From a virus: DNA of 32,320 bases. The translations under genes and the position numbers were made by a program. Positions within the stretch are counted from its first letter, which is position 1; the number at the start of each line of letters is the position of its first letter. The stretch is from IMG/VR virus record IMGVR_UViG_3300008219_000054, positions 1 through 32,320 of that record. The stretch is one strand, 5' to 3'. Below, piece after piece: positions 5,272 to 24,498 of this stretch. The notes beneath the pieces were generated by a model that was not told the origin of the DNA, made no database searches, and was given only the letters and a program-made list of their open reading frames with translations.

Positions 5272-6009
5272 TCACCAACTACAAAAGCATCCTTCGTCGT
5301 CAATCCCATCAAATACCAACTGCTGACCATCACCCTCTAACGACCTTAAACTTCGGCCACGATTGAGTATGGTATGATTGCCCACAACCTTCTGCATCCC
5401 CTCCTCCCACTCCACCATCCACTGAAACCGATCAGGATCTGTTTGCTGTAACTTTCTCCAAGCGTACGCACCCTGACGGAAACAACTGCCACCACAATTG
5501 TTGTGCGAAAACCCACGCCGATACATCAACGGAATCTCAATCCCCCAGCCATCGACCAATTTCATATAATCACGCTTCATCAACCGAGGCTCCCACAATA
5601 ACGGAAAGTCCACCTCGGCTCCCATCTTGATATACCGCTGACGTGGCCCATCCAAACGATGCGACTCCGTCCAGTCCAAGCCCAAATAAACCACACACGG
5701 CAGACGATCTTTGATATGCTTAACAAAAGGCTGGATCTTCAACTTGCGAGTACAGGAAAGGAACCGATTTGAACCAATTATCCCCTCCTCCTCAAATACC
5801 TCTGGTGGCGTTCGCCCGTCCTTATGCCTTGTTATCTCCCGATCCCACCTCGCCTCCAAATCATCTAGGAACCGATACAGATCATCGTCCTCCCAAGAGG
5901 TATCCGCAAACCATAACTCCACATCATCACCATAACGGCCTATCACCCTGTCTGCCGCTACCGCACTGGCTATGCCACCACTCAAACTGACAATATGACT
6001 CGCCGACAT
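5272..6009 (-). CDS. PP-loop ATPase of the PAPS reductase-like family
   Basis: 245 residues from the ATG at 6009; a GGAG lies eight bases upstream, and the frame also holds a TTG one codon earlier. Residues 8-18 (SLSGGIASAVA) form the PP-loop that binds the pyrophosphate of ATP. A set of cysteines follows: SCTRK near residue 85, NNCGGSC near 170 and GCFCSW at the C-terminus. This N-terminal SGG loop with a Cys-rich second half is typical of PAPS reductase-like phage proteins, relatives of sulfotransfer, DndC and tRNA-thiolation enzymes. It activates a substrate by adenylation; the substrate is unknown. It interrupts the neck and tail genes, so it is probably an acquired accessory gene. Confidence 0.75.
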   Translation of the reverse strand: MSASHIVSLSGGIASAVAADRVIGRYGDDVELWFADTSWEDDDLYRFLDDLEARWDREITRHKDGRTPPEVFEEEGIIGSNRFLSCTRKLKIQPFVKHIKDRLPCVVYLGLDWTESHRLDGPRQRYIKMGAEVDFPLLWEPRLMKRDYMKLVDGWGIEIPLMYRRGFSHNNCGGSCFRQGAYAWRKLQQTDPDRFQWMVEWEEGMQKVVGNHTILNRGRSLRSLEGDGQQLVFDGIDDEGCFCSW

Positions 6010-6022
6010 CAAAACAACTCCA

Positions 6023-7393: not shown

Positions 7394-10375
7394 TTAGCCC
7401 TCCACTTGAGTCAAAAAGGTTTTATCTCTGGTCAAAGTAAACACCTGTTTCTCTAAATCCTTGATTTGGAACTGTAAATGCTTCTCCAAATCGTCCTGAT
7501 CCAAGAAGCGCATATCTTGACCGTTATCCGTTATCTGAACATCTATTTTGGCTCCGAACCCTACTTGTAACAGTTTCAAAGCCACCTGATAAATAGGAAA
7601 TATCAGTTTGTAATAACGGCCCTCTGGATCAGCCAAATTAAGCTCCTCGTCATGGAAAATGCGTAACACTTCCCGCAACCGCCGTTCTGAAGTCTGGCTC
7701 AAAGGTTGGTCCGGGGTTTCTTGCCGTTCCCAGCCCACCATATTGATATATTCTCGCGCTAACAAAACCCAACCCAACAACCGATCAGGATGCACAGCTC
7801 GATCCAGTTTTAACAGTCCAATATTCCGTTCTTTACACTTAATCTGGCGCACATCTTCCGTCACATAACCATAATGAATGATGTCGGTTGAGGGCAACTC
7901 AAATGACGGTTCTATCGGTTCGTTTAGACTCCGATGGGCATGTTCATGGATACAGCCATAAAACTTGAACCCAGCCCCATTACGGTACAACCTGACGGGT
8001 GTGTCGTGCCGCTGGTCAGCGTCAACCATCAAATGAACCTGACGCAAGACATATCCGTCATAAAGTCGGGTCTGTAGATACTTGCCCAACAGATCACCGT
8101 TGCGTAATTCTTCGTCAGTGTCAATCCACAGAATCCAATCGCCGTTGGCCGGATCAACCGACTCGTTCCGCATCCACGAAAAGTTGCCCGGATTCGGCGC
8201 CCAATCCGGAGCGGCTGGCCATTTTTCTGGTAACTCTATGATCTTAGCCCCATACTGTTTAGCGATCTCCACCGTCTTATCGGTCGATTGATTGTGGGCC
8301 AAAATAATCTCGTCAGCTACATCTTTGACTGAACCCAAACAACGCCCTATATCCTGTTCGTTGTTCTGGGCGATCATACAAACACTGATCTTCTGGTATG
8401 GTCGAGTCAACTTGGCTTTCTTATCGAAATCTATCTCACCGTATTGACCGCCTTTTTGGTGCCGGAAAACGTAATGGCCCTTATTCAAACCTCGGCAACC
8501 GGTAGAGTTATTGGTGCAGATATATCGGGCTTCAAAACCGTCTTTTTGGCTAAAGACTTCTTCCACCGTGTTGTATTCCCAATGAATCCGATGCGTCCGT
8601 TGATTCAGTTCTCTGTCATTGGTAGCCATCTCCACGAATGGGCCGTTAGGTACTGTCCAGACCAGCCAGCCATCATCGGATAACAGGTCTTCCAAAGCCA
8701 AAACCAGTTCCATCGGTTCAACATAGTGTTCCAATAATTCGCCACAAAAGATCAGGTCATATTTCTGGCCTTGAAGCGAGAACAGGACATCGCCCTCCAC
8801 CTTAATCTCCTGCAAGGTGGATGCTTCCATCAAATCAGCTTGGTACAAATGCGGTTCACGTTGTCCCCATTGCTGATCAGATATAAACTGGTTCCCCTTC
8901 TCCACCACACCTGGGCTGAAATCTATACCCAAAACTTGGGCCGAGGGGAACATCCGTTGCAAGGCACTGGCAAAGATGCCACCTCCACAACCATAATCCA
9001 GAATGTTAGCTGGCTCCATCTGGCTGTTCTTGGGGTCGATCAATTGCAAGACAGTTTCCAGTCGACCATGAAACCCAGCCTCAACTACCTTGCCTTCCAA
9101 GGAAGGTTCCATCATGCCGGCTTCATACTGTTCTTCCGAATGCGTTTGTTCCAGACAGGAATCCAAGCGGTCTTGCTGTTCCTGGCTGACGCCTTCTTCC
9201 TCCCGAATATGGTAAGCGGTCACGAAATCGTCGTGATGAAGAAGGTTATCAAATATTTGCGGTAGATGATCTTGGAACCGGTCCTCAAAAAACTGGTCGA
9301 AATTCTGTTCCCATTCCTCAGCGATAGTGCTGTACTGATAATTGTCTTCCACCCATTGACGGCCGCTATCCTGAGCCTCTTTATATCGACCTGGATCGTC
9401 CAGCAAATCGAAGGTTTGGGCTATAAATTCGCGGCGGTATCCATCACTATAAGCATCACCCTCAATCAAAGCACCAGCAAACGGCCACAAAGTTTCTATC
9501 AACCCTCCTCGACTACTGGCTATCATTGGGGTTCGACAGGCTTGGGCTTCCAAAGCAGCGATACAAGAGGTCTCATCGAAAGTCGGCACACCCGGATACA
9601 ACATCAAAGCTGATCTGGAGATATGTTCATATAATTGGGTTTTGTTCAAATTACCCAAATATTCAACCCCTTCGGTATGAGCTACCATGCGATCAGCTTG
9701 CTCACAAATCCGCTTCACGTCCGGGTTATTTTCATACATTGAATAGTAGCGACAAACCTTCAATTCCAGGTCAGGCCGTAACTCCCGCATCTGAGGAAAG
9801 ATCTGCAATAATGGGAACAACCCTCGTTCTGGCCGGCTAATATAGATCATCTGGTTGGGATCTTTTTCAGCCACCAAACTGTCATCGACCGTATCCAAAT
9901 CAATGCCGTTCTTAGTCACAAACGCTAGCTTCTCGATACCACTAGGTAAGATAGATTCGTAATTTTTCCGTTGCCAATCACTTACATAAAGGATCTGATC
10001 TGTTTGCCATAAACTGCCGGCATATTCAGCCTTGATACTAGCTTCCAACACGTCCTCAACCCACAAACCACGATACTTGGCCCGGACATTATTGGCCATC
10101 ACTGGATAGTAGCGTTGGGAGATGAATATATCCCATTCGATACTGTGACACATATCAGGGAAATACTGGCTATCAGCCCATTTGACCCCGTTATATCGTC
10201 CTTGATGATCTTCGTTTTGAAATTGAGTGAAGACCGTGACCTGATGTCCTCGTCGGGCTAAAGCATTGGCCATATAAACCAAAGCTGTTTCACTGCCGCC
10301 TAAAGACTTCTCCAATTTAATAGTCTCAGCCGAAAAGGGGACTGATTGGCAATAGAAGGCGATATTGTATTTCAT
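7394..10375 (-). CDS. Three-domain fusion: GT4 glycosyltransferase, SAM methyltransferase, GT2 glycosyltransferase
   Basis: 993 residues. Domain 1 (about 1-385) is a GT-B glycosyltransferase: the Gly-rich LGGSETALVYMANALARRG at the N-terminus and the acceptor/nucleotide motif E268-x7-E276 (DETSCIAALEAQA) are characteristic of GT4. Domain 2 (about 410-640) is a class I methyltransferase with motif I DYGCGGG at 460-466 and a downstream GELLEHY. Domain 3 (about 660-900) is a GT-A enzyme: ISVCMIAQNNE at 663-673, NQSTDKTVEIA at 695-705 and the metal-binding DTD at 752-754. The last 40 residues form a coiled coil. It sits between the capsid and connector genes, so glycosylation of a virion protein is the most likely job. 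DNA glycosylation is an alternative. All three active-site motifs look intact. Confidence 0.88.
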   Translation of the reverse strand: MKYNIAFYCQSVPFSAETIKLEKSLGGSETALVYMANALARRGHQVTVFTQFQNEDHQGRYNGVKWADSQYFPDMCHSIEWDIFISQRYYPVMANNVRAKYRGLWVEDVLEASIKAEYAGSLWQTDQILYVSDWQRKNYESILPSGIEKLAFVTKNGIDLDTVDDSLVAEKDPNQMIYISRPERGLFPLLQIFPQMRELRPDLELKVCRYYSMYENNPDVKRICEQADRMVAHTEGVEYLGNLNKTQLYEHISRSALMLYPGVPTFDETSCIAALEAQACRTPMIASSRGGLIETLWPFAGALIEGDAYSDGYRREFIAQTFDLLDDPGRYKEAQDSGRQWVEDNYQYSTIAEEWEQNFDQFFEDRFQDHLPQIFDNLLHHDDFVTAYHIREEEGVSQEQQDRLDSCLEQTHSEEQYEAGMMEPSLEGKVVEAGFHGRLETVLQLIDPKNSQMEPANILDYGCGGGIFASALQRMFPSAQVLGIDFSPGVVEKGNQFISDQQWGQREPHLYQADLMEASTLQEIKVEGDVLFSLQGQKYDLIFCGELLEHYVEPMELVLALEDLLSDDGWLVWTVPNGPFVEMATNDRELNQRTHRIHWEYNTVEEVFSQKDGFEARYICTNNSTGCRGLNKGHYVFRHQKGGQYGEIDFDKKAKLTRPYQKISVCMIAQNNEQDIGRCLGSVKDVADEIILAHNQSTDKTVEIAKQYGAKIIELPEKWPAAPDWAPNPGNFSWMRNESVDPANGDWILWIDTDEELRNGDLLGKYLQTRLYDGYVLRQVHLMVDADQRHDTPVRLYRNGAGFKFYGCIHEHAHRSLNEPIEPSFELPSTDIIHYGYVTEDVRQIKCKERNIGLLKLDRAVHPDRLLGWVLLAREYINMVGWERQETPDQPLSQTSERRLREVLRIFHDEELNLADPEGRYYKLIFPIYQVALKLLQVGFGAKIDVQITDNGQDMRFLDQDDLEKHLQFQIKDLEKQVFTLTRDKTFLTQVEG

Positions 10376-15476: not shown

Positions 15477-16826
15477 TTATATTCCCCTGATATGCCGCCA
15501 ATTAGCCTGCGGTTGGTACAGACTCATTACTGCGTATCGCATAGCGTCCATGCCGTGATCGTCTTTTTTGGTCGGTTGGTCTTTAGGAATACCTGCGGTG
15601 ACCGCCCATTCGTATCCACTGATTTCTTCCAAGGTTGATTGAGGTCGAACCCGATTGACAGCGCCAGTGTCATCTTTCAGTTGCCAATCTTGTTCCACCA
15701 AGGCATCTCGATAAAACAATAATTCCCCATTGGCCAGCTTTTCGTACGTCCGTTCGATACCTTGCCGCACCTCCTTTAAGGCCGGCCGGGTTTGGATGCC
15801 GTTCTCGGCCAAGGTCAAACGGTCACTGACATCATGGTCGCTGATTGTGACCCTGATTTCCTCTTGGACTGGTTGGTGTTGGTGAATCATATCAGCGAAA
15901 GCCCGAACCGAAATATTGCTGTGATAAAGTTCCCGATACAAAATCATGCGCCCATCTTGATACACTCGCCACCACTGGCAGACATGAGGGTTGAGACCGC
16001 CGAAATCAATCGAGCGCAGGTTGAAGCTGTTACCCGGTTCGGCTTGGTCAATAATATGTTTATCAGGATCAAAGCAGTCGTAGACCAAACCTGAGAAGGC
16101 TACCCACTCGCCCAAAGCCATGCGGCGATAAAAGTTGCCCGTCATCCGTTTCAATCGGGCAATATATTCTTCACCCAGATACGGATTCTCAAAGCTGTTG
16201 GTGGTGACACAAAAAGCGTTCTCGTTAGAGTTACGAAAAAACTTTTCATACAACCAGTGCATGGGGCTGGCTGGGTTGCAAGCGGCCCACATCCGTTGTT
16301 TGTCAACTACTGGTTGACTCAATCGGGTCTGGATCATGTTCCAATCATCAATCTCCAGTTCGTGAGCCTCATCAACGAAAGCTCCCCCCAGCTCCAAAGA
16401 ACCGATCTTACTGTTCTTATCCATACCCAAGAAAATGATCTCTGAGCCATTATAAAGCGTGGCTTTCAATTCAGATTTACGCCACCGTTTGACGATGCCG
16501 GATTGAGGATCATCTATCGAGGGCCAGCCCAGGACATCGCAAGCGAAGGTGCGAATAGTGGTTTCGTATAAGGTGGCTCGTACCTTGCGAAAGACACCCA
16601 AACGGATGCCAGGGTTGTCGATGGCTTCCTGGTAACATTTCTCCATTAAAGCCCGACTCTTGCCAGCCCGTACCGCGCCAGAATATAGGTTCTCGGCCGC
16701 TTCCGATTGCATGAACTTCTGCTGTTTGGGCAAAGCCATAAAATAGGGTTTATGGACGGTCGGAGCCACCTTTAAGCCCGGAAAACGGATCTGCTTTAAA
16801 TTGACGGCACTGCTGCGAGATCTCAT
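15477..16826 (-). CDS. terL: Terminase large subunit
   Basis: 449 residues with both halves of the DNA packaging motor. ATPase: Walker A GAVRAGKS at 50-57, Walker B GAFVDEAHE with D152 and E153, and coupling motif AACNPASP around 181-188. Nuclease: D274 in SIDFGG, D330/D332 in SDHD and D427 in HGMDAMRYA, the RNase H-like triad. The first 30 residues look like an extension, and Met30 is an alternative start. The ATG at 16826 overlaps the stop of the CmoA-like gene (ATGA), so packaging and DNA modification genes share one transcript. Confidence 0.95.
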   Translation of the reverse strand: MRSRSSAVNLKQIRFPGLKVAPTVHKPYFMALPKQQKFMQSEAAENLYSGAVRAGKSRALMEKCYQEAIDNPGIRLGVFRKVRATLYETTIRTFACDVLGWPSIDDPQSGIVKRWRKSELKATLYNGSEIIFLGMDKNSKIGSLELGGAFVDEAHELEIDDWNMIQTRLSQPVVDKQRMWAACNPASPMHWLYEKFFRNSNENAFCVTTNSFENPYLGEEYIARLKRMTGNFYRRMALGEWVAFSGLVYDCFDPDKHIIDQAEPGNSFNLRSIDFGGLNPHVCQWWRVYQDGRMILYRELYHSNISVRAFADMIHQHQPVQEEIRVTISDHDVSDRLTLAENGIQTRPALKEVRQGIERTYEKLANGELLFYRDALVEQDWQLKDDTGAVNRVRPQSTLEEISGYEWAVTAGIPKDQPTKKDDHGMDAMRYAVMSLYQPQANWRHIRGI

Positions 16827-17545
16827 TTCACCGCTATCCAGCCAGCAAAGTTAAGGCATCGCCAGAAGCAATCTATTTGCTTGAACCCTGCCATCGCCAT
16901 TAGCTCCTCATTCCATTTAGCTGTTACAGGTACCAAGACCCCTTCCAGGCTTAACCGCTTCCGTTCTATTGCCTCCTCATCGTACCCGTTATCAGATTTC
17001 ATCTGATAATAAGAATCAACCAAGACACGATCTATCTCGGAGGTCTGTCCCAAGACCTTTTCTACCAATATGAAAGCTCTATCCGTATGATCAAAAATTT
17101 TTTGCAGAAGTCTTTGCCGATACTCAATCGGAATGAACTGCAAGGTCAAGACTGACAGAGTAATGCCAGCCCTCTCTGGAGGGTAATAGGACCTCAGGTC
17201 AACCTGTCGAATATCAACCTGGCAATATTGGTCTACAGCCTCGCTAAACCGGGCCTGGGCAGCCGTTACCATTGACGGGCTTACCTCACAACCGATAAAG
17301 GCATTGGAAGAAAAACGGCTGTCTTCCACCATTTGGGCGATAGCCGATCCCCTGCTACTGCCGAGGTCCACAACATTGGCATTAGCAGTAATATAATGGG
17401 CCGCTAAACGAAGACACAAATCCCTCATTAGTCGATATTGAGGGATTGACCGTTCCAGCATATCCTCAAACGAGTCAGATACAGCCTGATCAAACTCCCA
17501 GCGACCGCTAGGCTTAACATTATCAACAACTGAGATTTCAGCCAC
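16823..17545 (-). CDS. CmoA-like carboxy-S-adenosyl-L-methionine synthase
   Basis: 240 residues from a GTG at 17545 with AGAGG six bases upstream. It matches E. coli CmoA, which converts SAM and prephenate to carboxy-SAM, along its whole length as I recall that sequence: RWEFDQAVSDSFEDMLERS (15-33), motif I VVDLGSSRGSA (58-68), LSVLTLQFIP (130-139), ILVEKV (159-164), NGYDEEAIERKR (186-197) and the CLNFAGWIAVK end. Arg197 aligns with CmoA Arg199, reported to bind the carboxylate of carboxy-SAM. Ordinary methyltransferases lack these blocks. It overlaps the stop of the DNA methyltransferase gene by eight bases and the start of terL by four. I infer that it supplies carboxy-SAM to that enzyme. 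A role in host tRNA cmo5U synthesis is the main alternative. Confidence 0.85.
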   Translation of the reverse strand: MAEISVVDNVKPSGRWEFDQAVSDSFEDMLERSIPQYRLMRDLCLRLAAHYITANANVVDLGSSRGSAIAQMVEDSRFSSNAFIGCEVSPSMVTAAQARFSEAVDQYCQVDIRQVDLRSYYPPERAGITLSVLTLQFIPIEYRQRLLQKIFDHTDRAFILVEKVLGQTSEIDRVLVDSYYQMKSDNGYDEEAIERKRLSLEGVLVPVTAKWNEELMAMAGFKQIDCFWRCLNFAGWIAVK

Positions 17546-18716
17546 TTTTCGCCTCTTGAAGTATTCCGCTCGTTATAGACTCAGCGATAGCCTTCATCAT
17601 TAATGGAGGTACGGCCCGCCCCAATCTTTCCCACTGCTGAGGGTAAGTTCCAATCAGCTTGAAATCAGGGGGGAAGCTACAAATGCACCTCAATTCAGCT
17701 ATGCTAAACTTGCGCCGTTCTGTGGGGTGAGCCACACCAGCCGTGTTGGCCCTTCCACGAGCAGTTATTGTTGGGCATGGGCGATCGAGATGGGGTTTCG
17801 ATAGATTGAAATATTTGTCGGACCTTTGACCCATTCTCAGCTTATCCCATTCCCTTCCCACAGCATATGGGCTCATGTCAGTCTCAGCCTCTATATAGCC
17901 CCCGCTACTAAACTGTGCCCGACCGGTCGTGTTTCCCGTAGCGTCTGAGGCCAGAACTGTCGGTGACGGGCGGTTGGACGGGACATAATTGCTTGCCTTT
18001 AGATTAATTTTCCTTACCCATGGGAGAGCTTCACGGACACTATACCGATAAGGCAAAGGTTGCGGGAAGACGGGGGACAAGTCCAAATCTTGTCGTACCC
18101 CACAAAAAATCACTCGTTGCCGAGATTGCGGGACGCCAAGCCACTGCGCATCCAGCAGTTTAGCTTCAACCTTATAGCCACATGACTTCAACTCTTGCAA
18201 AATTAATTTGAAATAGCCTTTGGCCTTTCCCTTGATCAATCCGCTCGTATTTTCAGCGATAAATACCTTCGGCTGTAACCCTTTAACCAATCGAGCAAAC
18301 TCAAAAAAGAGGTCATCAACTCGCTGTTTGGTCTCACTATACGTCTTAACCTCGCCCCAATGCTTCGATCCTTGCCCGGCAGTAGAAAAGCTGGCACAGG
18401 GGGGTGAACCGTCCATCAAATCAAGCTCCCCAACTGACATACCGATTTCCTGCAAAATGTCGCTAGGCTTTAACTGACGAATGTCTGCTTGATTGACAAT
18501 TGCCTGAGGGCTATTAAGACGATATGTCCGTGCCGCAATATCTATGAATTCATTAGCCCAAACAACCTGATACCCGGCCATTCGATAACCCAGGGAGGAG
18601 CCGCCGCAACCGCTAAAGGTGCTGATGGCTTTATACCCGTTGGGTGAGACCGATTCGACCTCCGTCATTGTCGGGATAGAATATTCGGGCTTAACTACTT
18701 TGGCCTGACCACTCAT
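17538..18716 (-). CDS. C5-cytosine DNA methyltransferase with Arg in motif X; candidate DNA carboxymethyltransferase
   Basis: 392 residues with the C5-cytosine motifs in order: I FSGCGGSSLGY (34-44), IV GSPPCASFS with catalytic Cys107, VI ENT (155-157), VIII QSRQR (197-201), a target-recognition region (about 230-310) with RPSPT at 249-253 and RPCPT at 312-316, and X LGRAVPP (365-371). In canonical enzymes motif X reads GN(A/S)V; here the Asn is Arg367 (codon CGG). That Asn contacts the cofactor, and changing it to Lys or Arg lets engineered enzymes use carboxy-SAM. The Gln that often follows the catalytic Cys is Ala108. The gene overlaps the ParB-like gene by 26 bases and the CmoA-like gene by eight. 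No Shine-Dalgarno is clear, so coupling is likely; Met17 at 18668 is an alternative start. No restriction gene is adjacent. Confidence 0.9.
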   Translation of the reverse strand: MSGQAKVVKPEYSIPTMTEVESVSPNGYKAISTFSGCGGSSLGYRMAGYQVVWANEFIDIAARTYRLNSPQAIVNQADIRQLKPSDILQEIGMSVGELDLMDGSPPCASFSTAGQGSKHWGEVKTYSETKQRVDDLFFEFARLVKGLQPKVFIAENTSGLIKGKAKGYFKLILQELKSCGYKVEAKLLDAQWLGVPQSRQRVIFCGVRQDLDLSPVFPQPLPYRYSVREALPWVRKINLKASNYVPSNRPSPTVLASDATGNTTGRAQFSSGGYIEAETDMSPYAVGREWDKLRMGQRSDKYFNLSKPHLDRPCPTITARGRANTAGVAHPTERRKFSIAELRCICSFPPDFKLIGTYPQQWERLGRAVPPLMMKAIAESITSGILQEAKSG

Positions 18717-19224
18717 AACCGCATTTTGGACACATATGTTCCGTCCCTATCTCCTCGTCAAAAGATGGAAAATCCTCCGGGGGAGCAACCTCATCGGCCG
18801 CCGACACCTCAGACAGAAGTTCATCCAATTCCTCTACCCGAAAACCTGTATCATCCAGGTGGATTTCTTCGTCTTCCTCTAATTTTTTGATCAGATCATC
18901 TAAAGCCAAGACATCCCATTCGCTGGTTTCTCCGGTCCGGTTATCCGTGATCGAGTAGAGTTTGGCGTCATTCTCAGAGAAGTCCAAGTAGATAACTGGT
19001 ACCGCCTCCACTCCCAACTCTTGGGCCGACCGCAAGCGGCCATGGCCCGCGATGATCATGTTGTCTTCTTTACGGACCAGGATCGGATTGGTAAAGCCAA
19101 ACTTTTTGATTGACCTTTGGATGTCTTGGATGTTGCGCTCACTGTGGTGGCGAGGGTTATCCGTGAATGGTTTCAGTTCTTGCGGGTCAATATATTGGAC
19201 TTGTAAATTGGTTCCATTAGACAT
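18691..19224 (-). CDS. ParB-like nuclease-domain protein with C-terminal zinc ribbon
   Basis: 177 residues from the ATG at 19224, chosen because GGAG lies six bases before it; an ATG two codons earlier lacks this spacing. Residues about 7-100 are a ParB/Srx-type domain: the LKPFTDNPRHH opening, KFGFTNPILVRKEDN, AGHGRLRSAQELG and VPVIYLD. An acidic linker follows, and the C-terminus holds a CPKCGYEW half zinc ribbon. Phages often carry this domain beside or fused to DNA methyltransferases and small terminases, as here. It may act in DNA binding or NTP-dependent loading. It overlaps the next two genes, so the four are one translation unit. Confidence 0.8.
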   Translation of the reverse strand: MSNGTNLQVQYIDPQELKPFTDNPRHHSERNIQDIQRSIKKFGFTNPILVRKEDNMIIAGHGRLRSAQELGVEAVPVIYLDFSENDAKLYSITDNRTGETSEWDVLALDDLIKKLEEDEEIHLDDTGFRVEELDELLSEVSAADEVAPPEDFPSFDEEIGTEHMCPKCGYEWSGQSS

Positions 19225-19690
19225 CGTCATCTCCTACCCCAAGGATTTCTTTCACCCATGAACCGCTAATATCAAATACCAAGGCCAATTGCCGTATTTC
19301 ATGGACTTCCCGAGTGCCGGGTGTCTCTAGCTCCAAGCGGATCTCCCGCCGAACATAGCTTTGGAAAGCCTTACTGATGGTGAACTGTTCGTCCAACCAT
19401 TTCTTGATTTCCTCTTGCCGTTCTTCCTGCGCTCGTTTCCTAGCTTCACGTTGGTTATCTGCATCATAAGCCGCCGCCCGAGCCACCCAACTATTGAGGC
19501 TTGACCAACGGGTCCAATGACCATATGCCTGCTTGCCTTTAACCGTCTTGCCTTGATCGCGATAGAAATCACGAAAAGCCTGATCAATACTGCGTTTGTC
19601 AGGATCGAGGTTGCGGTAATACTCGAAAGCGGTAAAAGCGGCGTGAGTTTCTTCCGCCAACCGATCATAGATTTTGTGTTCGTCTGTCAT
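19217..19690 (-). CDS. Small terminase-like DNA-binding protein
   Basis: 157 residues. The block GHWTRWSSLNSWVARAAAYD (about 57-76) is a recurrent signature in phage proteins annotated as small terminase or terminase-associated HTH. The N-terminal 55 residues are helical, a charged helix (REARKRAQEERQEEIKKW) follows, and the C-terminus (IRQLALVFDISGSWVKEIL) reads as a second HTH-like unit. The small subunit binds the packaging site and regulates TerL; here the two are separated by the ParB-like, methyltransferase and CmoA-like genes. No Shine-Dalgarno precedes the ATG at 19690, and a hairpin ends 14 bases before it. Confidence 0.6.
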   Translation of the reverse strand: MTDEHKIYDRLAEETHAAFTAFEYYRNLDPDKRSIDQAFRDFYRDQGKTVKGKQAYGHWTRWSSLNSWVARAAAYDADNQREARKRAQEERQEEIKKWLDEQFTISKAFQSYVRREIRLELETPGTREVHEIRQLALVFDISGSWVKEILGVGDDDV

Positions 19691-22614: not shown

Positions 22615-23352
22615 TTAGTTTAGTAAAGCATTTCTCCATTTAAAGAAAATAGATTTCACCTCAGAAACACACTTACTAGGATCAGAGAACACCTGCCGGG
22701 CGGTGAAGGGTATCATTAGCTCACCTTCCCTAGTTAAATCCCGCATCCGAGCGAAATCGTGGGGCAATTTGTTTTTATGCCATTTCTCGCCCAAGATACT
22801 GATATTGCAATGGGTCGGCTTACCGTCTTCCACCACCGAGAAATCGATGCGGTAACGACCTACCTCCTTGTTATGCGTCAGTTCCAAACCCTCAGTCTTG
22901 GCTTTCTGCAAAAAATGACGCTCGGCTTCAGAGTCATAATCCCTCTCAGCCTCAAACTCCGTCATGCCTGGCAGATCCAACTGCTGGCCCAAGTTGGTCA
23001 AGTTTTCGATCTGCACTCCCATGTTGAGCCGCTTTTGGTTTAACTGCTTCTGCTTCTTCAACAGATCCTCACTGTCAACCTTATCAACTGGCTTGTACTC
23101 GTTGCTGCTAGTCTTAATATAAGCCGGGATCAACTCACCGTCAGGTGTCACCCTCATCATTTTGGAAACCAATTGCCCCACTAACTGCCTAGCCCGTTCT
23201 ACAGCTAAGTCTTCTGTTGATCTGTTTTGCAGTATCAGTGGCATCATGGCTTGAGTTAATTCCTCAATATCGATGCCGTCAGCTTTCTCTACCAGACGAC
23301 ATAGTGCCGACTGTATAGGATCATCAGTTACTACCAGTTGATTCTTCGCCAT
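22615..23352 (-). CDS. Protein with a degenerate endonuclease-like (DUF559/PD-(D/E)XK type) C-terminus
   Basis: 245 residues; GGGAG stands seven bases before the ATG at 23352. The N-terminus (about 1-110) is helical. The C-terminus (about 140-240) follows the restriction-endonuclease-like order: AERHFLQKAK helix, RYRIDFSV strand, CNISILGEKWHK strand, FARMRDLTREGELMIPFTARQVFSD. In active DUF559-type nucleases the middle strand carries an acidic E-x-D/K and a Gly-His; here it reads SILGEKWH, so the expected acidic residue is missing and activity is doubtful. It overlaps the ParB-like gene upstream. Function unknown. Confidence 0.55.
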   Translation of the reverse strand: MAKNQLVVTDDPIQSALCRLVEKADGIDIEELTQAMMPLILQNRSTEDLAVERARQLVGQLVSKMMRVTPDGELIPAYIKTSSNEYKPVDKVDSEDLLKKQKQLNQKRLNMGVQIENLTNLGQQLDLPGMTEFEAERDYDSEAERHFLQKAKTEGLELTHNKEVGRYRIDFSVVEDGKPTHCNISILGEKWHKNKLPHDFARMRDLTREGELMIPFTARQVFSDPSKCVSEVKSIFFKWRNALLN

Positions 23353-24220
23353 TGCTTAACTCCCTATAAAACTGAGCCGACTCCCCTAGTGAAGTGGCCT
23401 GATAGTTTAATGTACTAGTAATCTCGTCACGACCGTACAATATAGATCTGATCTTAGTCGGCGGATGGGCCGATAACTCCGTGACTAGTTTCCGCACCTT
23501 AATCACCGCTAGATCAAGTTCAAAAAACTGATTCAGCAACTTCTGGTCTTCCGTTCTGACCTTCATCAAATCGCCCAGCGTATTAATTTGCTTACCCGCA
23601 AACTCGACCACAATGTCAGACTTCGGCTCGACTACTTCTGGCAGGGTTTCGATCTGGTTGACTTGTGCATTTTCAACTGGCAAAGGTTCAGCTAGGTCAT
23701 TTGCCCTAGCTCTGCCTCCGATGTTGCCCGTTTTCATGGTGGTGACTGTGCCGTGTTTGGTGGTATAGGTGCGTTCTTGGTTCTCACTGGAATTGATTCC
23801 AGTGAGACTTTTCCTCACTTTTTCCACAAAAGTATGACCGACTTTCAGATCCCTGGCAATCTTCCGTCCTGATTTGTCTGGCCTGAGCCTTAAAGCCCTT
23901 TCAACTGCCGCCCACTTTTCCTCTCTGGTTCTTGGCACACCATGAATCGCATTTTCCGTACAAGCCAAATACTCAGCATCAAGTCGAGTCCCTTCTCTGA
24001 CTTCGGCTTCAAAATGTTCCAGCCCAGCCTCTTGTGCCGCTTGGATGCGGTGGAATCCAGCGTACAACCACTTCGCTTCACCATCATCCACCACCCCGAT
24101 AGCAGGGAACTTATCACCCCGTTCCATCGCTTCGGAATATTGCGATACCGTTACCATGTCAACCTCTCGCAAGTTGATCGACTGGTCAACGGCAATGTCT
24201 TCAATCCTTACTAAACCCAT
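23324..24220 (-). CDS. ParB-like DNA-binding protein
   Basis: 298 residues from the ATG at 24220, which overlaps the upstream stop (TGATG); a GTG one codon earlier is also possible. The N-terminal domain has the ParB-like pattern: IEDIAVDQSINLREVD, a strand with FPAIGVVDDGEAKWLYAG and FHRIQAAQEAG (about 50-65), then AENAIHG-type sequence (LACTENAIHGVPRTREEKWA). The region KIARDLKVGHTFVEKVRKSL (about 118-137) is a helix-turn-helix. The C-terminal third is helical. ParB-type proteins bind DNA sites and can spread using CTP. It may serve in plasmid-like maintenance, gene control or replication. Confidence 0.8.
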   Translation of the reverse strand: MGLVRIEDIAVDQSINLREVDMVTVSQYSEAMERGDKFPAIGVVDDGEAKWLYAGFHRIQAAQEAGLEHFEAEVREGTRLDAEYLACTENAIHGVPRTREEKWAAVERALRLRPDKSGRKIARDLKVGHTFVEKVRKSLTGINSSENQERTYTTKHGTVTTMKTGNIGGRARANDLAEPLPVENAQVNQIETLPEVVEPKSDIVVEFAGKQINTLGDLMKVRTEDQKLLNQFFELDLAVIKVRKLVTELSAHPPTKIRSILYGRDEITSTLNYQATSLGESAQFYRELSNGEESTGSN

Positions 24221-24498
24221 CACTCCTCCAATAATCGTTCGGTTAGTAGTCGAATCAGTTGGGTGGACGCCTGTTTGATCAGATCCTCTTTAAACTGATC
24301 CAAATATTGGTTGAGGGCTTCTTGGGCAAAAGCCTTAACTTTCGGTTCCAATTCATCCACCACCATGTCTTTAATCTCCAGGGCGAAATTACTGCCCGAC
24401 ACCTCGGTCATCACTTGGGCCACAATTTGGCCGGTCTGTTCCTTCAAAAGACGGTTTACGGTTTCTTCAACATCAAACCCTGGCAACCTTAATCGCAT
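24220..24498 (-). CDS. Small helical acidic protein (92 aa)
   Basis: 92 residues, almost wholly helical: ETVNRLLKEQTGQIVAQVM, LEIKDMVVDELEPKVKAFAQ and LNQYLDQFKEDLIKQAS, ending in LLTERLLEE. It contains no cysteine and no membrane segment. It abuts the upstream gene and overlaps the start of the ParB-like gene, so the two are translated together. The short regular helices suggest a dimerising or bundle-forming partner. Not recognised. Confidence 0.6.
   Translation of the reverse strand: MRLRLPGFDVEETVNRLLKEQTGQIVAQVMTEVSGSNFALEIKDMVVDELEPKVKAFAQEALNQYLDQFKEDLIKQASTQLIRLLTERLLEE

Follow-up and report, generated by a model that had tools for sequence, protein, structure and literature searches.

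The CmoX-CmoA locus

The 32,320-base linear IMG/VR record IMGVR_UViG_3300008219_000054, referred to at its full length as the window, comes from a tailed phage and carries on its minus strand two overlapping genes whose products are predicted to place a carboxymethyl group on cytosine in DNA. One (17538..18716) encodes a 392-residue predicted DNA cytosine C5-carboxymethyltransferase of the CmoX type, and the other (16823..17545, GTG start) a 240-residue predicted CmoA-type synthase of carboxy-S-adenosylmethionine (carboxy-SAM). The two genes share 8 bases (17538-17545), and the CmoA gene shares a further 4 (16823-16826) with the terminase large subunit gene, terL, directly downstream. The original prediction, made from these letters alone, had both reading frames and both overlaps right. 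The record has no end repeats and may therefore be incomplete.

That prediction also allowed that such a pair might be undescribed, which has been overtaken by the work of Yang et al. (Nat Commun, 7 December 2025; PMC12783734) on the CmoA-CmoX-CmoY system of Synechococcus phage S-B43, characterized through assays of the enzymes, crystallography, and mass spectrometry of the virion DNA. There, CmoA makes carboxy-SAM, CmoX accepts carboxy-SAM only and makes 5-carboxymethylcytosine at GC sites, and CmoY attaches glycine to that base; the virion DNA contains the glycine amide and not bare 5-carboxymethylcytosine (PMC12783734). The same authors list 5,615 candidate CmoX sequences (SPPC plus Arg) with 4,257 CmoA, 2,251 ligase, and 1,660 ParB-domain neighbors; since the list draws partly on IMG/VR, the window may already be among them (PMC12783734). 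The window pair is thus a further, well-supported example of a published system and not a new class, and it provides independent support for a recently discovered DNA base. New here, besides the additional member, are the joint switch of Gln and Asn to Ala and Arg, its apparent natural reversions, genomes that lack the ligase although they were deposited as complete, and the recurrent placement of the pair before terL.

Active site and fold of the methyltransferase

The CmoX-type protein matches PF00145 across residues 28-382 (3e-55), and its C5-methyltransferase fold and motifs are complete. SpCmoX of S-B43 (8YF3) is its best sequence match in the PDB (3e-67) and also the top fold match (Foldseek 9e-30, prob 1.00, TM 0.71/0.83) of an AlphaFold model (pLDDT 83) computed from an alignment limited to the window protein and its relatives at other loci. 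In the crystal structure with carboxy-SAM, SpCmoX Arg350 contacts the carboxylate, and Yang et al. equate this residue with HhaI Asn304 (PMC12783734). Arg350 aligns with Arg367 of the window protein (codon CGG, 17616..17618, minus strand), the predicted carboxylate contact at the Asn position of motif X, which bears out the equivalence with HhaI N304 claimed earlier. All residues named in the SpCmoX/carboxy-SAM structure are conserved: F25, E47, F48, D69, SPPC95-98, and R350 correspond to F34, E56, F57, D78, SPPC104-107, and R367. The S-B43 genes used for this alignment are identical in the S-B05 record across the compared length.

As had been described, the catalytic Cys107 (SpCmoX Cys98) is followed by Ala108 at the position of HhaI Gln82 (codons 18393..18398, minus strand), so that this enzyme lacks the canonical pair, a motif X Asn with a Gln following the catalytic Cys. 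The same two positions have been altered in the laboratory for larger cofactors, in M.MpeI N374K, cited by Yang et al. (PMC12783734), and in M.HhaI Q82A/N304A, whose substitutions open the enzyme to bulky cofactors (PMC10666283). Whereas those are engineered mutants, the window has a natural Arg and Ala together with its own cofactor synthase.

The CmoA homolog

The neighboring protein matches the CmoA profile TIGR00740 over residues 13-240 of 240 (1.4e-40), in keeping with the full-length match that had been proposed. It also matches phrog_4752 (4e-68) and the solved CmoA/YecO structures 1IM8, 4GEK, and 4IWN (1e-29 to 1e-24). E. coli CmoA, of the tRNA cmo5U pathway, is likewise a full-length homolog (29% identical), although the partner in the window is a DNA enzyme and not CmoB. 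Its Arg199 aligns with Arg197 of the window protein (codon 16955..16957, minus strand), so the carboxylate-binding Arg pointed out earlier is indeed present. As a marker, however, it is not required and is unsuitable as a criterion, since the S-B43 CmoA proven by biochemistry (SpCmoA, L003:4443-5138) has Glu there and many phage CmoAs vary at this site.

CmoA homologs also occur in Alcaligenes phage Afa-NA1 (L082:23471-24223) and in MT835562 (L008:15843-16550), and a profile search of these two records found no PF00145 methyltransferase. The carboxy-SAM of these phages may be used by some other enzyme that acts on DNA or RNA.

Linkage between motif X Arg and CmoA

Relatives of the window CmoX were drawn from viral contigs, phage records, and bacterial genomes. 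Of 31 viral CmoX records, 30 carry a CmoA homolog, and the lone exception has Cys at motif X. When the viral and phage loci are sorted by their motif X residue, CmoA accompanies Arg in 44/45 and Met, Asn, or Cys in 0/104, and three further loci with an unreadable residue have no CmoA. The bacterial set behaves likewise (Arg, 36/39; Asn, 0/39). The original prediction had named as damaging the finding that Arg is common in methyltransferases without a CmoA neighbor; such loci amount to 4 of 84, and contig ends truncate two or more of these, so the prediction was not refuted; in the reverse direction, Asn, Met, or Cys occurs with CmoA in 0/143. The viral exception (L016) is on a contig that ends 172 bases past CmoX, and the bacterial ones are at a contig end (L199), on a 6-kb contig (L226), and in a Chloroflexi genome (L245). 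Fisher values for the association (8e-19 and 3e-37) overstate the evidence, since the loci are related by descent. On a tree that leaves out the two diagnostic columns (those of motif X and of the residue following the catalytic Cys), there are 4 changes at motif X, and in random paired comparisons, CmoA shifts in the same direction as motif X and never in the opposite one.

Several side observations belong here. The Chloroflexi locus (L245:9899-11185) combines an Arg-type CmoX with a CmoY homolog; 10 kb around it contain no CmoA, and one encoded at another site may supply it. One CmoX-clade enzyme (L030:266-1198), whose 29-kb record lacks CmoA, carries Cys in the motif X position and Thr following the catalytic Cys. 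In a sister family of phage C5-methyltransferases (L084, L086, L087-L187), Met occupies the motif X position, Ser follows the Cys, and CmoA is present in 0/101; a different cofactor synthase beside this family was considered and rejected, as no gene family recurs next to most of its loci.

The linkage bears directly on a more conventional explanation, in which the window enzyme is an ordinary SAM-dependent 5-methylcytosine methyltransferase that happens to have an unusual motif X, and CmoA is there for another purpose such as tRNA modification. The complete C5-methyltransferase fold and motifs would suit such an enzyme, and in E. coli, CmoA does serve tRNA. Still, we consider this very unlikely: SpCmoX, with the same Arg, takes carboxy-SAM only (PMC12783734), the association of Arg with CmoA is nearly perfect, and the SAM-type relatives have Asn and Gln and no CmoA. 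Moreover, no CmoB-like tRNA transferase was found in the window, where the only CmoB matches (E 1e-4) map to the methyltransferase domain of a 993-residue protein that UbiG matches far better.

A two-residue switch and its apparent reversions

The identity of the residue following the catalytic Cys tracks motif X without exception among 109 sequences. Asn-type enzymes have Gln in 41/41, while the 68 Arg-type enzymes have Ala (48), Ser (15), Lys (3), or Val (2) and never Gln; the frame-disrupted L243, where a piece with Gln is fused to one with Arg, was left out of this count. This loss of Gln in step with the gain of Arg, together with the published M.HhaI Q82A/N304A substitutions (PMC10666283), upholds the earlier suggestion that Ala108 could widen the cofactor pocket.

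Five ParB-linked C5-methyltransferases from Acidobacteriota (L208, L210, L211, L213, and L219) have the canonical Asn and Gln at the two positions, yet nest inside the Arg/CmoA clade in a quick tree, and no CmoA lies near them within the sequence examined. Judging from sequence, they are apparent natural reversions of both residues to SAM use, with loss of CmoA, and such nested reversions point to a two-residue cofactor switch. Neither this Gln nor the Acidobacteria are mentioned in the main text of Yang et al. (PMC12783734). A writer of this modification may be recognized by Arg at motif X, the absence of Gln after the catalytic Cys, and a CmoA nearby.

Proposed mechanism

Very probably, then, the phage encodes its own supply of carboxy-SAM together with a matching DNA enzyme whose product is 5-carboxymethylcytosine. 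CmoA would convert host SAM and prephenate to carboxy-SAM. CmoX would flip cytosine out of the helix, Cys107 would attack C6, and the carboxymethyl group would be transferred to C5, with Arg367 holding the carboxylate of the cofactor and Ala108 leaving space where ordinary enzymes carry Gln. In phage DNA, the base most likely protects against restriction. The gene identities, active-site residues, fold, and Arg-CmoA linkage come from the present analysis, and the activity, its cofactor and product, the specificity for sites, and the role in protection are assigned by homology to the S-B43 enzymes. The chemistry foreseen in the original prediction has been demonstrated for the homologous S-B43 pair (PMC12783734) and very probably extends by that homology to the window phage.

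Some observations weigh against this assignment. Identity to the proven S-B43 enzymes is modest (CmoX, 39%; CmoA, 26%), and the window CmoA scores 139.5 bits, below the TIGR00740 equivalog cut-off of 193.3, though no searched viral or phage record reaches it, S-CRM01 included. The paired comparisons on the tree offer too few independent pairs for significance. Furthermore, a ligase encoded off the contig could lead to a different end product.

Could the pair instead be decaying or silent cargo without activity? Frame-disrupted relatives do exist (L243, L247, and L254). In the window, however, both frames are intact, the overlap is translationally coupled, every catalytic residue is kept, and a 99% identical pair lies on another contig (L014), the only match returned when CmoA was used as a query in a single-protein scan of viral contigs. 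We regard inactivity as barely credible.

The recognition domain of the window CmoX differs from that of S-B43 CmoX, so the GC specificity of the latter cannot be assumed, and depletion of GC or CG dinucleotides, considered as a clue to specificity, yielded nothing informative.

End product and the question of a ligase

The original prediction took 5-carboxymethylcytosine as the final base. The reading as carboxymethylation stands, and the correction comes from S-B43, where CmoY turns that base into a glycine amide; CmoY is absent from the window contig. No PF00733 match (asparagine-synthetase-like, AMP-forming ligase) was found on the contig, although a gene off the contig is possible, and BLAST with four CmoY proteins found no match in the window. 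CmoY in relatives usually adjoins CmoX or CmoA, yet in the window those two genes overlap.

With no CmoY ligase on the contig, the likely product would be bare 5-carboxymethylcytosine, the carboxylate probably staying free, and this is the simplest sequence-based prediction for the members without a ligase, the window included. Two records annotated as complete genomes, those of S-CRM01 (178 kb) and Moraxella phage Mcat8 (KR093632; 41 kb), have CmoX and CmoA, and the PF00733 search, which finds the ligases of S-B43, PaBG, TurkishDelight, and Erwinia Y3, returned no match in either. Mcat8 resembles the window in its gene order, ParB-CmoX(Arg)-CmoA-(one gene)-terL-portal; its CmoX is 46% identical to that of the window, its CmoA is very divergent, and its genes are annotated as hypothetical. 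We put it at close to an even chance that the window phage and relatives such as Mcat8 and S-CRM01 do stop at the free carboxylate, with bare, negatively charged 5-carboxymethylcytosine in the virion DNA, written by a CmoX-CmoA pair that sits within the packaging block in the window and in many small relatives. As a natural end product, this base has not yet been reported, and members without a ligase would offer the simplest form in which to examine how it fares with restriction, CRISPR, and type IV enzymes.

Alternatively, 5-carboxymethylcytosine may be only a handle to which an amine is joined, much as glycine is by CmoY in S-B43; the ligase would then be encoded off the contig or be unrelated to asparagine synthetase. 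The exclusive glycine amide of S-B43 virion DNA (PMC12783734) and the possibly partial contig would fit this, as would the PF00733 homologs on 13/31 viral CmoX records, one of them (L027) ~3 kb from the pair. The negative searches of the window, its overlapping genes, and the ligase-free S-CRM01 and Mcat8 records, deposited as complete, speak against it, and so does the only PP-loop protein in the window (5272-6012), which aligns with CmoY in hhalign over just the 12-residue PP-loop. On balance, we judge a hidden ligase doubtful, though by no means far-fetched.

The PP-loop protein was rejected as a CmoY substitute on further grounds: PF01507 occurs on just 3 other CmoX records, and its relatives are found in 89 phage records, mostly of Mycobacterium phages. 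It belongs to the PAPS-reductase-like phage family phrog_424 and has sequence similarity to the solved PptA (21fy, 1e-11).

Relatives that do have a ligase differ in what accompanies it. Streptomyces phage TurkishDelight (gp121-125) shares ParB, CmoX, and CmoA with the window and has the closest CmoX in the phage collection (50% identical); unlike the window, it has a ligase of the glutamine-amidotransferase type between CmoX and CmoA. In L037 (11064-13934), and also in L038 and L268, a divergent CmoY (PF00733) lies between CmoX and CmoA together with a DegT/StrS-family aminotransferase (PF01041, 2e-34) and an inositol-phosphate synthase (TIGR03450, 8e-94). From their position between the two genes, the latter enzymes suggest an amino-inositol as the amine ligated to 5-carboxymethylcytosine, which would be an undescribed hypermodification. 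A 262-kb phage contig (L036:12391-13464) has a DgcN/DUF1611 protein (NF041892, 3e-88) between CmoA and CmoY, which may supply or adapt another amine donor.

Gene neighborhood and other window genes

On the minus strand, the order is terS-ParB-CmoX-CmoA-terL-portal-head genes, in place of the CmoA-CmoY-CmoX of S-B43. The probable terminase small subunit gene (19217..19690; phrog_6299, 3e-13) forms the upstream end of the block and is followed by a ParB-N domain gene (18691..19230; PF02195, 4e-12), which shares 26 bases with CmoX; terL (15477..16826; PF04466, 2e-17; TIGR01547, 1e-37) follows the pair. The ParB gene is a conserved upstream partner, adjoining CmoX in most relatives. Its product ends in a CPKCGYEWSG tail, and a CPxC tail is present in 97/113 ParB homologs. 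The two-cysteine CPKCGYxWSG form is seen beside Asn- and Arg-type methyltransferases alike.

Among viral loci from small genomes, about 20 extend far enough downstream to be judged, and in these terL lies ≤3.2 kb after the pair and is often the next gene. These terminases span the Pfam families Terminase_3 (the window), GpA, Terminase_6, and TerL_ATPase; the ParB-CmoX-CmoA-terL block thus recurs beside unrelated terminases, an arrangement not seen in the large phages examined. This repeated placement hints that the modification may be made late, near packaging.

Elsewhere in the window, the 993-residue protein noted above (7394-10375) is encoded just after the major head protein gene and combines a GT4-type glycosyltransferase, a methyltransferase, and a GT2-type glycosyltransferase, and the stretch 22615-24223 has a protein with a weak match to the REase_MTES_1575 nuclease domain, below the Pfam cut-off, adjoining a second ParB-like protein.

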